Source: Zobellia alginiliquefaciens
GTDB taxonomy: Bacteria > Bacteroidota > Bacteroidia > Flavobacteriales > Flavobacteriaceae
Length of the DNA: 64,000 nt
Direction: 5' to 3'
NCBI RefSeq assembly: GCF_029323795.1
Contig: NZ_CP119758.1
Coordinates: 2,232,001-2,296,000 of the forward strand
The number at the start of each line of letters is the position of its first letter. Positions within the stretch are counted from its first letter, which is position 1. Below are positions 2,990 to 60,677 of this stretch, in pieces. The translations under genes were made by a program, and so were the position numbers. The notes below the pieces were generated by a model. That model was given only the letters and a program-made list of their open reading frames with translations. It ran no database searches and was not told the DNA's origin.

Positions 2990-4132
2990 ATGTCAACTTT
3001 AGACACTACCTCGTTGAATTTGCCCAAGGAAAATCCGGAAGCAGAAGATTTTCTTCCATTATTGGGTACGGATTATATAGAACTTTATGTAGGCAATGCC
3101 AAGCAAGCTGCCCATTATTATATGGCAGCTTGGGGTTTTCAGCCATTGGCCTATGCAGGGCTTGAAACCGGACTAAAAGACCGCGTGTCCTACGTATTAC
3201 AGCAAGATAAGATTAGGCTGGTGCTTACCTCCCCGTTAAAATCTGGAGGAGATATTAATAAACATATAGATGCTCATGGAGATGGTGTCAAAGCTATTGC
3301 ACTTTGGGTAGATGATGCTTCCAAAAGTTATCTTGAAACAACAAAAAGAAGTGCGGAAAGTTATTTAGAGCCTAAAACCATTTCAGATGAAGATGGGAAA
3401 GTAGTTTTGTCCGGAATACATACCTATGGTGAAACGGTACACATTTTCGTGGAACGAAAGGATTATCAGGGTGTTTTTATGCCCGGTTATCAGCCGTGGA
3501 ATCCATACTTTAAACCAACGGATGTGGGACTTAAATATGTAGACCACATGGTGGGAAATGTGGGTTGGAACGAAATGAACAAATGGTGTGAGTTTTATGC
3601 CAAGGTCATGGGGTTTGCTCAGTTGGTATCTTTTGATGATAAGGATATCTCTACGGAATATACGGCGCTCATGAGTAAGGTGATGAGTAACGGTAACGGA
3701 AGAATTAAGTTTCCGATTAATGAACCTGCCGATGGTAGAAAAAAATCACAGATAGAAGAATATATAGATTTTTACAATGGGGCAGGTGTGCAACATATGG
3801 CATTGGCTACGGATAATATTGTTGAAACGGTTACGGCCTTAAGAGATAGGGGTGTGGAATTTTTAAAGGTACCCTCTAGTTATTATGAAGATGTGCTGGA
3901 TCGTGTAGGAGAAATAGATGAAGATTTAGCACCTCTAAGTGAATTGGGAATTCTTATTGATAGAGACGAAGAAGGGTATCTATTACAAATATTTACCAAG
4001 CCAATCTTGGATAGACCCACAATGTTTATTGAGATTATTCAAAGAAAAGGAGCTAAATCATTCGGTAAAGGAAATTTTAAAGCACTTTTTGAGGCTATAG
4101 AAAGAGAACAAGAGTCTAGGGGTACACTGTAA
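2990..4132 (+). CDS. hppD: 4-hydroxyphenylpyruvate dioxygenase
   Basis: Converts 4-hydroxyphenylpyruvate to homogentisate, the second step of tyrosine breakdown, using Fe(II) and O2. The 380 residues match the family's usual length. Two VOC half-domains are visible, and the C-terminal half carries the iron triad: His186 in VDHMVGN, His269 in GVQHMAL and Glu348 in MFIEIIQR. The conserved C-terminal gate helix (FGKGNFKALFEAIE) is also present. The ATG at 2990 puts MSTLDTTSLN at the N-terminus. In this group hppD often sits near kynA, as here, though 1.3 kb and the RNA candidate separate them. Homogentisate dioxygenase is not in the window. Confidence 0.97.
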   Translation: MSTLDTTSLNLPKENPEAEDFLPLLGTDYIELYVGNAKQAAHYYMAAWGFQPLAYAGLETGLKDRVSYVLQQDKIRLVLTSPLKSGGDINKHIDAHGDGVKAIALWVDDASKSYLETTKRSAESYLEPKTISDEDGKVVLSGIHTYGETVHIFVERKDYQGVFMPGYQPWNPYFKPTDVGLKYVDHMVGNVGWNEMNKWCEFYAKVMGFAQLVSFDDKDISTEYTALMSKVMSNGNGRIKFPINEPADGRKKSQIEEYIDFYNGAGVQHMALATDNIVETVTALRDRGVEFLKVPSSYYEDVLDRVGEIDEDLAPLSELGILIDRDEEGYLLQIFTKPILDRPTMFIEIIQRKGAKSFGKGNFKALFEAIEREQESRGTL

Positions 4133-4306
4133 ATTTTGTCTTGCGGATTCTTTAGTTCGGTTTTTAATGGTAGAACAGGTGATTTTGCAGGTAAAAATGG
4201 TGTGTTTTGGGCCTAAATTAGAGGTCATATCTTAATGAATTGCCAAATTTAGAGCTGTAAGCAAAAATAACTGTTAATGTAATAGTTAAAGTAAGTTAAA
4301 ACGGTT

Positions 4307-4334
4307 TTTGGTTTAAAGGTTTGCCTTAAATTTG
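4307..4334 (+). promoter_or_regulatory. Bacteroidota-type promoter for the RNA candidate at 4340
   Basis: TTTG at 4307-4310 and TAAATTTG at 4327-4334, an exact match to the -7 consensus TAnnTTTG. The 16-base spacer is slightly shorter than the usual ~19. It predicts a transcription start near 4340, exactly where the first hairpin begins. No open reading frame follows within the next 300 bases, so it should drive a non-coding transcript. Confidence 0.55.
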
Positions 4335-4339
4335 TAGGC

Positions 4340-4445
4340 GTAAGGGGTGGTTCCCTTACAACTTTAAGTATTGGTTTTTCATAATTTAAAGTTTGGTTGG
4401 TTATTTAGGAAAAGCCCTGACATGAAATGTTGGGGCTTTTTTTTT
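4340..4445 (+). ncRNA. Candidate ~105-nt structured small RNA
   Basis: Three consecutive hairpins fill this stretch with almost no unpaired sequence at the 5' end. Hairpin 1 is GTAAGGG (4340-4346) with CCCTTAC (4353-4359). Hairpin 2 is AACTTTAA (4360-4367) with TTAAAGTT (4386-4393), both perfect. Hairpin 3 is the terminator at 4410-4445. A TAnnTTTG motif ends 5 bases before hairpin 1. There is no coding potential and the nearest genes are 207 bases upstream (hppD stop) and 190 bases downstream. Promoter, folded body and terminator together define an independent transcription unit. I cannot assign a family. Rfam families from flavobacteria such as Flavo-1 or 6S-Flavo should be compared, though I do not see the single long bulged hairpin expected of 6S RNA. 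Confidence 0.6.
4410..4445 (+). terminator. Intrinsic terminator of the small RNA candidate
   Basis: AAAAGCCC pairs with GGGCTTTT, extended inside by ACAT/ATGT across a GAA loop, and ends in a run of nine Ts. It is 280 bases after hppD and 190 before the next gene, so it fits the RNA candidate better than hppD. The remaining 4446-4635 is AT-rich; I see no gene in it and no clear promoter for the next gene. Confidence 0.85.
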
Positions 4446-4635
4446 AATCCGTAGTTGGACCTGTTCGGTTCAACACCAGTTTAGGATTTTTAATGTAGAT
4501 GAAATCCTATGAAAATCATTAAAAAAACAGAGCTGTGTAATGCATACAATACTTTGGAATAAATTTTGTTTAAGTAATTGTAAGCCCTTAATATGATATG
4601 AATGCGTTTTGTATTTTTATCGTAATACTACAGCT

Positions 4636-5415
4636 ATGAAAAAAGCCTTTGCATTACTTTTCCTTTTCACATTTTTTTCTTCTTACTCTCAGAATAGTAA
4701 GTCGGCCTTTGATGCCGGTGAGTGGCTTAAATTTAGAATGCATTACGGTTTTCTAAACGCTAGTTATGCAACGCTACATGTTAAATCTGATATAATTGAT
4801 GATGTACCTGTGTATCATGTTGTAGGTAGGGGAGAGACTACCGGGTTTGCAAGTGTGTTTTTTAAAGTAGACGATACATATGAAAGTTACTTTGGTAAAG
4901 AAGACGGTAAGCCATATAGATTTATTAGGAAAATAAACGAGGGTGGGTATACCAAGGATGTAGAAATCAATTTTGATCATGAGGAAGATAAAGCCGTTCT
5001 GAATGATAAAAAGCATAATAAAAAGTATAATTTTGAACTACAGGATAGTATTCAAGATTTGTTATCCGCATTCTATTACCTTAGAAACAACTATGATCCT
5101 AAGGATTTGGTAAAGGGTGAGGCCGTGAAATTGAAAATGTTGTTCGATGACGACGGTATTTTCAACTTTAAGCTAAAATATTTAGGTACAGAAGTGCTTA
5201 AAACTAAGTTCGGTAAGGTAGAATGTTATAAATTTAGGCCTTTGGTACAGTCCGGTCGAGTTTTTAAGGAAAAAGAAAGTCTTTCGCTTTGGGTTTCTAC
5301 TGACAATAATAGAATACCTATTCGCATTCAGGCAGATTTGGCGGTCGGATCGATAAAGGCGGACCTTGACGGATATAACGGACTAAAGCATCAGTTCAAG
5401 ATAATAATGGATTAA
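4636..5415 (+). CDS. DUF3108 domain exported protein
   Basis: About 259 residues with a signal peptide (MKKAFALLFLFTFFSSYSQ), so probably periplasmic. The body matches the DUF3108 pattern: an N-terminal AGEWLKFRMHYGFLNASYATL, a central VEINFDHEEDKAVL and a late LSLWVSTDNNRIPIRIQADL. It is a beta-rich fold of unknown function. The ATG at 4636 is chosen because it opens the signal peptide; an upstream TTG at 4609 would add nine unlikely residues. It is 7 bases before kynA and likely heads the operon DUF3108-kynA-M23 peptidase. Confidence 0.85.
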   Translation: MKKAFALLFLFTFFSSYSQNSKSAFDAGEWLKFRMHYGFLNASYATLHVKSDIIDDVPVYHVVGRGETTGFASVFFKVDDTYESYFGKEDGKPYRFIRKINEGGYTKDVEINFDHEEDKAVLNDKKHNKKYNFELQDSIQDLLSAFYYLRNNYDPKDLVKGEAVKLKMLFDDDGIFNFKLKYLGTEVLKTKFGKVECYKFRPLVQSGRVFKEKESLSLWVSTDNNRIPIRIQADLAVGSIKADLDGYNGLKHQFKIIMD

Positions 5416-5422
5416 AACCCTA

Positions 5423-6394
5423 ATGAGAGATAAAGAGCGAATAGATTCACAAATTTCAAAACTAGAAGAGAAGTACAAAGATTCCGGTCAGGATTTAAGT
5501 TCTTATTTAGATGGGCTTCTTTATCAACGTTACCTCACCTATTGGGATTATATTCATTTAGACACCCTATTAAGTCTTCAGGTGCCCCGCACCTATTTTC
5601 CGGATGAGGAAATTTTTATCATGTACCATCAGATTACAGAGTTGTATTTTAAGCTTATTCTTCATGAGCAAAAGCAGTTGGTGGATGATAAATCTCAAAA
5701 TATAGATTTCTTTATAGAAAAGGCAAGACGTATCAATAGTTATTTTAAGGCTTTGATATCTTCTTTTAGTATTATGATAAAAGGTATGGAGAGAGAACAG
5801 TTTCTTCAATACCGTATGGCATTGCTTCCGGCCAGTGGTTTTCAGTCGGCACAGTACCGTATGATAGAGATTTATGCCACACCTTTGGAAAATTTAGTAC
5901 ACCATACAGAAAGAGATTCCTTTTCCTCGCAGAATAGTATAGAAGAGCTTTATGAGGCAATATATTGGAAAAAAGGAGCCACTGACTTAGCTACGGGAGA
6001 AAAGACATTGACGCTCAAGCAGTTTGAGTATAGGTATACACCTCGCTTGATCAGAATTGCAAAACAGGTGGAGCAGAATACCATTTATCGGAAATACCTG
6101 CAATTACCTGCTGATAAGAAAGATAATAAAGAGCTAATAGAAGCGTTAAAGACATTGGATATGAATGCCAACGTAAATTGGCCTTTAATGCATATGGGGT
6201 CTGCTCATCGTTATTTAGGAAAGGATAAGGAACAGATAGATGCTACAGGAGGAACAAATTGGAAGGAGTATTTACCGCCCAGTTTTCAGAAAATCGTGTT
6301 CTTCCCGGAAATCTACACAAAACAAGAGTTAAATAATTGGGGTAAAGAATGGGTAGACCATATCTTTAACCCGGATAAGAAACATACAGATTAG
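5423..6394 (+). CDS. kynA: Tryptophan 2,3-dioxygenase family protein
   Basis: Heme enzyme that opens the indole ring of tryptophan to give N-formylkynurenine. The 323-residue sequence has the family's YWDYIHLDTLLSLQ and MYHQITELYFKLILHE segments, where His69 matches the active-site base. A C-terminal MHMGSAHRYLG segment aligns His257 with the axial heme ligand, followed by ATGGTNWKEYL, equivalent to the GTGG loop that binds substrate. Sequence is divergent from proteobacterial enzymes but typical of Bacteroidota forms. It sits 7 bases after DUF3108 and only one base before the M23 peptidase start, so translation is probably coupled. No other kynurenine-pathway gene is in the window. Confidence 0.93.
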   Translation: MRDKERIDSQISKLEEKYKDSGQDLSSYLDGLLYQRYLTYWDYIHLDTLLSLQVPRTYFPDEEIFIMYHQITELYFKLILHEQKQLVDDKSQNIDFFIEKARRINSYFKALISSFSIMIKGMEREQFLQYRMALLPASGFQSAQYRMIEIYATPLENLVHHTERDSFSSQNSIEELYEAIYWKKGATDLATGEKTLTLKQFEYRYTPRLIRIAKQVEQNTIYRKYLQLPADKKDNKELIEALKTLDMNANVNWPLMHMGSAHRYLGKDKEQIDATGGTNWKEYLPPSFQKIVFFPEIYTKQELNNWGKEWVDHIFNPDKKHTD

Positions 6395-60027: not shown

Positions 60028-60080
60028 TCCGCTTTCGAATTAGTTTAAGGTAAGATTATTCTTATCTTTAGTCACCAACC

Positions 60081-60088
60081 TAACTTTG
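60081..60088 (+). promoter_or_regulatory. -7 element before NfeD-like gene
   Basis: TAACTTTG is an exact TAnnTTTG match 6 bases before the ATG at 60095, again predicting a very short or absent leader. Confidence 0.5.
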
Positions 60089-60094
60089 CTACTT

Positions 60095-60673
60095 ATGGAA
60101 CTAGGGTTCGAAATGATGACGTTATTTGAGAAAATCTATTGGGTTACTGCTGTGGTGGGATCCATAGTTCTCATAATTCTTTTGCTTCTGACCTTTATTG
60201 GAGGTGAGATGGATGATATTGACGGTGACGTTGATACTGAAATAGATGCGGATACCGGTATTGAATTTCAATTTTTATCTTTCAAAAATCTTGTCGGCTT
60301 TTTTACCATTTTCGGGTGGTCCGGTATTGCTTGTTTAGATGCCGGAATGTCAAAAGGAGTAACCGTTTTTATATCGCTGGTTTGTGGTTTACTGATGATG
60401 TTCACCATGGCTTCTCTTTTTTATTATCTAGGAAAGTTGCAGAGCAGCGGTACTTTAAAACTCAAAAATGCTCTAAATCAAGTTGGAGAAGTATACCTGA
60501 CTATTGGTGCCAATCGTAAGAGCATCGGTAAAGTGAGTATAAATGTGCAAGGTACGCTACGTGAATTGGAAGCGCTTACCAATGCCAATATAGACCTTGT
60601 ACAAGGCAATGTGGTTATCGTAAAGGAAGTAACCGCAAACGGAATTTTAATTGTTGAACCCCTAAATAAATAA
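60095..60673 (+). CDS. NfeD-like membrane protein with OB-fold tail
   Basis: About 192 residues. The ATG at 60095 is chosen; the frame opens nine bases earlier at a TTG that lies inside the -7 motif. Two or three hydrophobic helices (starting ~15-38, VTAVVGSIVLIILLLLTF) flank an acidic loop EMDDIDGDVDTEIDADTG. The C-terminal ~70 residues (LNQVGEVYLTIG to VVIVKEVTANGILIVEPL) have the NfeD OB-fold pattern. NfeD proteins work with flotillin/stomatin partners, and the flotillin gene follows 4 bases later. Confidence 0.85.
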   Translation: MELGFEMMTLFEKIYWVTAVVGSIVLIILLLLTFIGGEMDDIDGDVDTEIDADTGIEFQFLSFKNLVGFFTIFGWSGIACLDAGMSKGVTVFISLVCGLLMMFTMASLFYYLGKLQSSGTLKLKNALNQVGEVYLTIGANRKSIGKVSINVQGTLRELEALTNANIDLVQGNVVIVKEVTANGILIVEPLNK

Positions 60674-60677
60674 CCAA

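Follow-up and report, generated by a model that had tools for sequence, protein, structure and literature searches.

The window analysed here is a stretch of 64,000 nucleotides, which corresponds to positions 2,232,001–2,296,000 of the 5,066,785-bp single-contig genome of Zobellia alginiliquefaciens. The region of interest lies between two genes. The upstream neighbour (2990–4132) was called hppD in a preliminary description of this DNA; for its product, Pfam yields only glyoxalase/dioxygenase-superfamily domains. Downstream, a DUF3108 gene (PF11306) starts with an ATG at 4636. A patatin/Omp85 gene (PF01734, PF19143) is also found in the window. The preliminary description placed a self-contained small RNA gene here, at a distance from both neighbours and free of open reading frames. 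The distances are as given there (HPPD end at 4132, DUF3108 ATG at 4636), and no listed open reading frame of at least 40 aa overlaps 4339–4445. The following features were located:

4285–4300, plus strand: GTTAAA-N4-GTTAAA upstream element, conserved upstream of copies of the RNA
4327–4334, plus strand: –7 promoter box TAAATTTG, which fits the Bacteroidota consensus TAnnTTTG
4339–4445, plus strand: predicted small RNA of about 107 nt, with the 3' end taken from the T tract and the 5' end from the position of the box
4340–4359, plus strand: hairpin 1, a covarying stem of 8 bp with a TGGT loop; GUGGU is kept in or at the loop
4360–4393, plus strand: hairpin 2, nearly invariant, with a 10-bp outer stem and UUUUUCAU in its upper part
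4361–4409, plus strand: conserved core of 49 nt, exact in most copies of type 1
4394–4406, plus strand: linker GGUUGGUUAUUUAGG, unpaired in the minimum free energy (MFE) fold and the best seed candidate
4407–4445, plus strand: intrinsic terminator hairpin and T tract in the MFE fold

For the 5' end we used a –7 box at –12 to –5, the placement given in PMC9723704. The MFE fold of 4338–4446 has an energy of –39.3 kcal/mol compared with –22.0 ± 3.1 kcal/mol in 200 dinucleotide shuffles (z = –5.66), none of which was as good. It contains the two back-to-back hairpins that had been described, and TAAATTTG ends 5 bases ahead of hairpin 1, in line with the earlier claim of a box within 6 bases of the hairpins. 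The single-stranded linker had been drawn as 4394–4409. Positions 4394–4406 are indeed unpaired, but 4407–4409 belong to the terminator hairpin. This hairpin (4407–4443, 17 bp) pairs into the T tract at 4437–4445, which consists of nine T. A simple terminator scan found no site in 3000–6000, presumably because its rule asks for a T run following the stem and thus passes over a hairpin in which the T tract is itself paired with the A arm. UUUUUCAU in hairpin 2 is the complement of AUGAAAAA. A micro-ORF on the minus strand (ATGAAAAACCAATAC...), with 8 codons in the Zobellia copies, was rejected, as by eye it is not kept in variants.

Distribution and covariation

The RNA is kept in all nine Zobellia genomes searched, with a nearly unchanged transcript between diverged flanks. 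A BLAST search of 299 Flavobacteriaceae genomes gave matches better than 1e-21 in 49 of them (counted from the listing) and matches at E ≤ 0.01 in 194, the weaker of which are mostly partial and probably due to chance. A covariance model (R1) was built from 45 sequences out of 75 references, with near-identical and very divergent ones excluded. At E ≤ 0.001 it matched 107/299 sampled family genomes and 88/236 genera, where the strict search filters may have let weak copies escape and the lowest-scoring hits could be due to chance; at E ≤ 1e-6, 79/299 family genomes remained (counted from the listing). Most genomes in which the model found the RNA have one match apiece. A 2.6-Mb genome (G030) carries three R1 matches at separate places, so that spread within one genome is possible. 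Class-wide, R1 matched 10/395 genomes. Nine belong to the same family; in the remaining one (L217) no core is seen by eye, and its match was taken as chance.

A 22-base pattern searched over named species matched at least 120 stretches. The genera among the matches listed include Zobellia, Maribacter, Arenibacter, Cellulophaga, Allomuricauda and Robiginitalea as well as Kordia, Gillisia, Christiangramia, Salegentibacter and Capnocytophaga. A match in Rhinopithecimicrobium (L262), which we take to be a sphingobacterium, has by eye no terminator after the core and is probably a chance hit.

In total, 200 loci were examined, 76 found by BLAST, 4 by the model and 120 by the named-species pattern (of at least 120 matched). 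The core pattern used for counting found no copy in six of them (L086, L212–L214, L262 and L332). The remaining loci gave 171 distinct copies with enough flank, 118 of which are of type 1, the form present in the window. Since the copies were found by the core pattern, presence of the core is partly a selection effect. The 49-nt core is exact in 101/118 distinct type 1 copies, and in 43/53 among the loci picked by BLAST alone. An additional count on part of the loci gave 97 copies of type 1 (core exact in 81), 24 of type 2, 13 of type 3 and 7 others. Common to the types are roughly UUUUCAU, AUUUAA and GUUGGUUA, followed by the terminator; exceptions include L212–L214. Flavobacteriaceae comprise degraders of algal polysaccharides and some fish pathogens, and to our knowledge their small-RNA control has been mapped in few species. 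A core kept letter for letter in many genera offers an entry point to it.

The transcription signals are conserved as well. A terminator-like hairpin with a T run was found in 171/171 distinct copies, all picked by the core pattern, which agrees with the strong terminator described earlier. For the upstream side, 172 distinct copies with 150 bases of upstream sequence were compared, after 23 duplicates and 4 copies too near an end had been dropped. GTTAAA is present upstream of the RNA in all 172, the GTTAAA-N4-GTTAAA repeat in 117 and an exact TAnnTTTG in 127. A control stretch 740–850 bases upstream contained GTTAAA in 1/149 (part of the loci). The final GTTAAA starts 32–33 bp ahead of the –7 box in 74/103 copies with both elements, and the repeat occurs a single time, at the RNA gene, in 2.064 Mb of the own genome. 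We infer that the repeat is the site of a dedicated regulator and resembles an activator site. A sigma-70 scan gave nothing that fits the RNA start, presumably because Bacteroidota boxes lie outside sigma-70 rules.

Hairpin 1 shows two-sided changes at six of seven pairs, with 95% of cells paired in the 45 sequences; for pairs 11–34 and 12–33 such changes occur in 14/45 and 17/45 sequences, respectively. When the partner is slid, every whole-structure measure falls, a figure which includes the other helices. A crude caller, which misread some, counted 46 distinct hairpin 1 stems. Thus, compensatory changes in a conserved structure, as looked for in an sRNA gene, are found in hairpin 1. They had been suggested for both hairpins, but hairpin 2 is nearly invariant in the 45 sequences, and its covariation is uninformative because there is hardly any variation. 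Moreover, three distant copies (L090, L094 and L100) fold without hairpin 2. From this lack of variation and the distant copies it looks as if the sequence of hairpin 2 rather than its helix is kept. The terminator helix, with 34.9% of cells paired on columns misaligned by MAFFT, was excluded as evidence and is included in the whole-structure figures.

The sequence signals of an independent sRNA gene are all found here, namely a promoter box and a terminator of its own and no ORF. Judged from such signals, there is almost no doubt that 4339–4445 is a genuine gene for a regulatory RNA.

The RNA could be the ortholog of an sRNA from Flavobacterium psychrophilum, e.g. Rfp13, Rfp15 or Rfp18. This is a serious possibility, if somewhat less than even; the transcript would then be known, not the family, and a trans-acting role would be compatible with it. 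PMC9723704 describes Rfp11, Rfp13, Rfp15 and Rfp18 as structured and conserved. In four genomes of genus g127, which is Flavobacterium only by our guess, the RNA is present and has the same genes on either side. Against this, Rfp11 is reported under a different promoter class.

Linker modules and gene order

Parts of the RNA recur elsewhere in the genome. TTGGTTGGTTATTTAG has exactly two occurrences per genome in 9/9 Zobellia genomes, one in the RNA gene and one 3' of a 303-aa lipoprotein-like gene without a Pfam match, where the copy has a hairpin and T run of its own in the alignment. In the own genome this 3'UTR (L007/L161, at 2,209,135) lies some 27 kb upstream of the RNA gene; a stretch of 17 nt shortly before its terminator is identical to the RNA linker region and is kept in 9/9 genomes. 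The string TTTGGTTGGTTR is found at 9 places in the own genome versus 3 for the reversed control. These are the RNA gene, three terminator-bearing 3'UTRs, one leader and four sites inside genes. The 3'UTRs follow the 303-aa lipoprotein-like gene, a 64-aa lipoprotein-like gene and an Hsp20 gene (PF00011). The leader belongs to an ECF-type sigma factor gene (PF04542), with TTTGGTTGGTTR on the other strand; at this place (L166, own genome 4,212,733) CAACCAACCAAAAAAC stands before the ATG and is complementary to the RNA linker.

In the Hsp20 3'UTR, TTGGTTGGTTA, a hairpin and a T run are kept in 9/9 Zobellia genomes. This 3'UTR (L158; 650,897–651,062, minus strand) carries the linker module and a terminator, together with a small inserted hairpin, and is a candidate for a 3'UTR-derived sRNA. 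Linker-like sequence also precedes the terminator after the 64-aa lipoprotein-like gene (L163; 2,677,622), and a weaker linker-like copy precedes one after an LRR protein gene (L109; 2,608,261). Such 3'UTR copies of the seed would bear on whether a single RNA network is fed by several mRNAs. Terminators do not carry the module as a rule: of the 156 found in 864 kb, 2 are preceded by GGTTGGTT and 3 by the reversed string.

This rarity also speaks against a binding site for a protein. In such a reading, the RNA would bind or sequester a protein, e.g. of the RRM type, at a site formed by the GGUUGGUUA-terminator module, and pairing with mRNAs would be secondary. A core of 49 nt that is unchanged in 101/118 type 1 copies is in our judgement long for a seed, the linker and terminator module is also found at mRNA 3' ends, and RbpB is reported to bind FopS RNAs (PMC11697453). 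However, no RRM protein turned up when 864 kb of the own genome were scanned with a crude motif, and we regard protein binding as the main function as unlikely.

The usual gene order is HPPD or patatin gene, RNA, DUF3108. A DUF3108 gene is found downstream of the RNA in 69/76 loci. In the other seven, the RNA was not located by the pattern (L086, L107), the contig ends (L037) or the stretch examined holds no DUF3108 match (L087, L093, L097 and L101). A patatin gene lies upstream, with no HPPD match in the stretch examined, in 14/76 loci. Among the 120 named-species loci examined (of at least 120 matched), 110 have a DUF3108 match. Tandem pairs of RNA copies occur in Kordia jejudonensis, Cerina litoralis and L101; two DUF805b RNA motifs (RF02914) were seen near the latter pair, at 1094–1128 and 1786–1818 of L101. 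Ahead of DUF3108, at 4546–4568 of the window, stands ACAATACTTTGGAATAAATTTTG, which is partly common to many other genera and resembles a sigma-54 –24/–12 promoter. Judged by this likeness, it would put DUF3108 under separate control.

Although the conserved order with DUF3108 downstream would suit a cis-acting leader or attenuator of the DUF3108 operon, or the 3' end of the HPPD transcript, we consider this very improbable and set it aside on the gene-order evidence (4/76 loci without DUF3108 and 14/76 with patatin and no HPPD upstream in the stretch examined), to which are added the RNA's own promoter box and upstream element, the strong terminator 190 bases before DUF3108 and the separate conserved promoter-like string between them.

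Pairing with translation start regions

According to PMC11697453 and PMC7366714, neither the classical sRNA chaperones nor Shine-Dalgarno signals are present in this phylum. Pairing of the RNA with mRNA start regions was assessed for three seeds at seven thresholds, uncorrected and with crude start calls. Under these terms, the linker at 670 starts of the own genome gave 6 sites at ≤ –20 kcal/mol versus 1.2 (1/100 shuffles). At 936 independent starts it gave 4 versus 2.2 at ≤ –20 kcal/mol (47/200 shuffles) and 35 versus 22.6 at –16 (19/200 shuffles). For the combined 1606 starts the values are 10 versus 3.1 ± 2.1 at ≤ –20 kcal/mol (3/500 shuffles) and 64 versus 37.9 at –16 (17/500 shuffles).

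In the replicate starts, the whole seed showed no clear enrichment and the loop region none at –14 or better. Within 25 nt of ATGAA, TAACCAACC has 46 sites in nine genomes, after removal of the nine in the RNA gene itself, versus 46 for the reversed control. An anti-start-codon loop as the sole seed was rejected: strongly pairing sites were not enriched in the replicate, and in nine genomes just two occurrences of TTTAAATTATGAAAAA lie elsewhere than in the RNA gene. Two candidate target sites of the RNA lie in the window, at adjacent genes:

60073–60087, plus strand: in the leader of a 192-aa gene (start 60095; no Pfam match), rank 1 of 672 starts, –24.0 kcal/mol
60659–60677, plus strand: ahead of a Band_7/SPFH (flotillin-like) gene (start 60678; PF01145), rank 2 of 672 starts, –23.5 kcal/mol

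At the first site CCAACCTAA is kept in 7/7 aligned sequences, while two of the nine genus genomes are without the region. The second is only partly kept in the genus. The earlier proposal of the linker as a seed-like region is therefore upheld in part: it lies within the conserved core, recurs in the 3'UTR modules and shows mildly enriched complementarity at start codons, but the pattern test was null. Since the linker enrichment is mild and the pattern test null, pairing of the RNA with start regions is held to be likely, yet unproved.

We propose that the RNA acts in trans by base pairing, its linker blocking regions of translation start in the manner of GibS and FopS, and assign this a probability of roughly 0.6. 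Support for the blocking of start regions by the linker is moderate, and its action in trans we infer. The proposal is based on the conservation of the RNA, the covariation, the conserved promoter and terminator, the 4/76 loci without DUF3108, the 3'UTR modules, the complementarity of the linker and a layout similar to FopS. An activator bound at the GTTAAA repeats would switch the RNA on. Hairpin 1 may cap and shield the 5' end. The conserved core, and in it mainly the linker, would pair to leaders and start codons in several mRNAs; the UUUUUCAU stretch could assist once hairpin 2 opens. Pairing would block ribosome entry, as reported for GibS and FopS of Bacteroides. The 3'UTR modules of linker and terminator in the Hsp20 and lipoprotein mRNAs may release further RNAs with the same seed.

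Comparison with known small RNAs

An Rfam 15 scan gave no family at its gathering score in the window and none on the RNA in eight homologous loci. Flavo-1 and 6S-Flavo, named in the preliminary description as families to check, missed their gathering scores in the window and in these loci. Flavo-1 is a flavobacterial RNA motif like the present RNA, but without a match at threshold. Sub-threshold listings rest, by our reading, mostly on the terminator and were disregarded. With no Rfam match, and with conservation, covariation of hairpin 1 and a conserved box and terminator, the self-contained sRNA gene of the preliminary description is supported.

The core strings were not found in the main texts of the literature searched, where sequences are rarely printed, which makes this a weak negative, and no title on Zobellia sRNAs was among the matches listed for Zobellia and small RNA. 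Base-pairing sRNAs are already known as a kind. In the literature searched we found no account of the present RNA as a family whose anatomy and range are defined; the F. psychrophilum sRNAs are possible orthologs, judged by description. Rfp18 in particular resembles it by description, being a flavobacterial sRNA that is structured, conserved and transcribed as a separate unit; for Rfp18, PMC9723704 reports pairing through a third stem-loop and an effect on metalloprotease mRNAs.

GibS from Bacteroides thetaiotaomicron is similar by description, being an intergenic sRNA with an unstructured part that pairs around start codons (PMC7366714). It differs in its genomic place and in its promoter PM2, which is not the ordinary box.

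FopS RNAs are reported to occur in Bacteroidaceae, to block start codons and in one case to derive from a 3'UTR (PMC11697453). The FopS model (RF04319) reaches 17.2 bits on the window copy and 12.5 bits on the distant copy L104, compared with a gathering score of 56. It aligns to 4371–4447, with UUUUUCAU, GGUUA and the terminator in register. String alignment to FopS was tried for six forms. The score of the window copy was reached by 74/300 shuffles and three other forms likewise do not stand out; only type 3 (2/300 shuffles) and L216 (0/300), a putative ortholog, do so. A single-stranded 5' seed directly before the terminator, as in FopS, is not seen in the present RNA, in which two predicted hairpins precede the linker.

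An ancient phylum-wide module, consisting of UUUUUCAU as an anti-start-codon element, GGUUGGUUA or GGUUAAU and a terminator, might connect stand-alone sRNA genes and 3'UTR copies throughout Bacteroidota in one network with a shared seed, which we regard as speculative and rather doubtful. If so, the stand-alone forms would be the Flavobacteriaceae RNA and the GibS and FopS RNAs of Bacteroides, and heat-shock (Hsp20) and envelope mRNAs would release RNAs with the same seed. The present RNA differs from FopS by its covarying 5' hairpin and its usual syntenic place. It shares with FopS the succession of UUUUUCAU, a spacer, GGUUA(A)U and the terminator, as well as the presence of several copies per genome.
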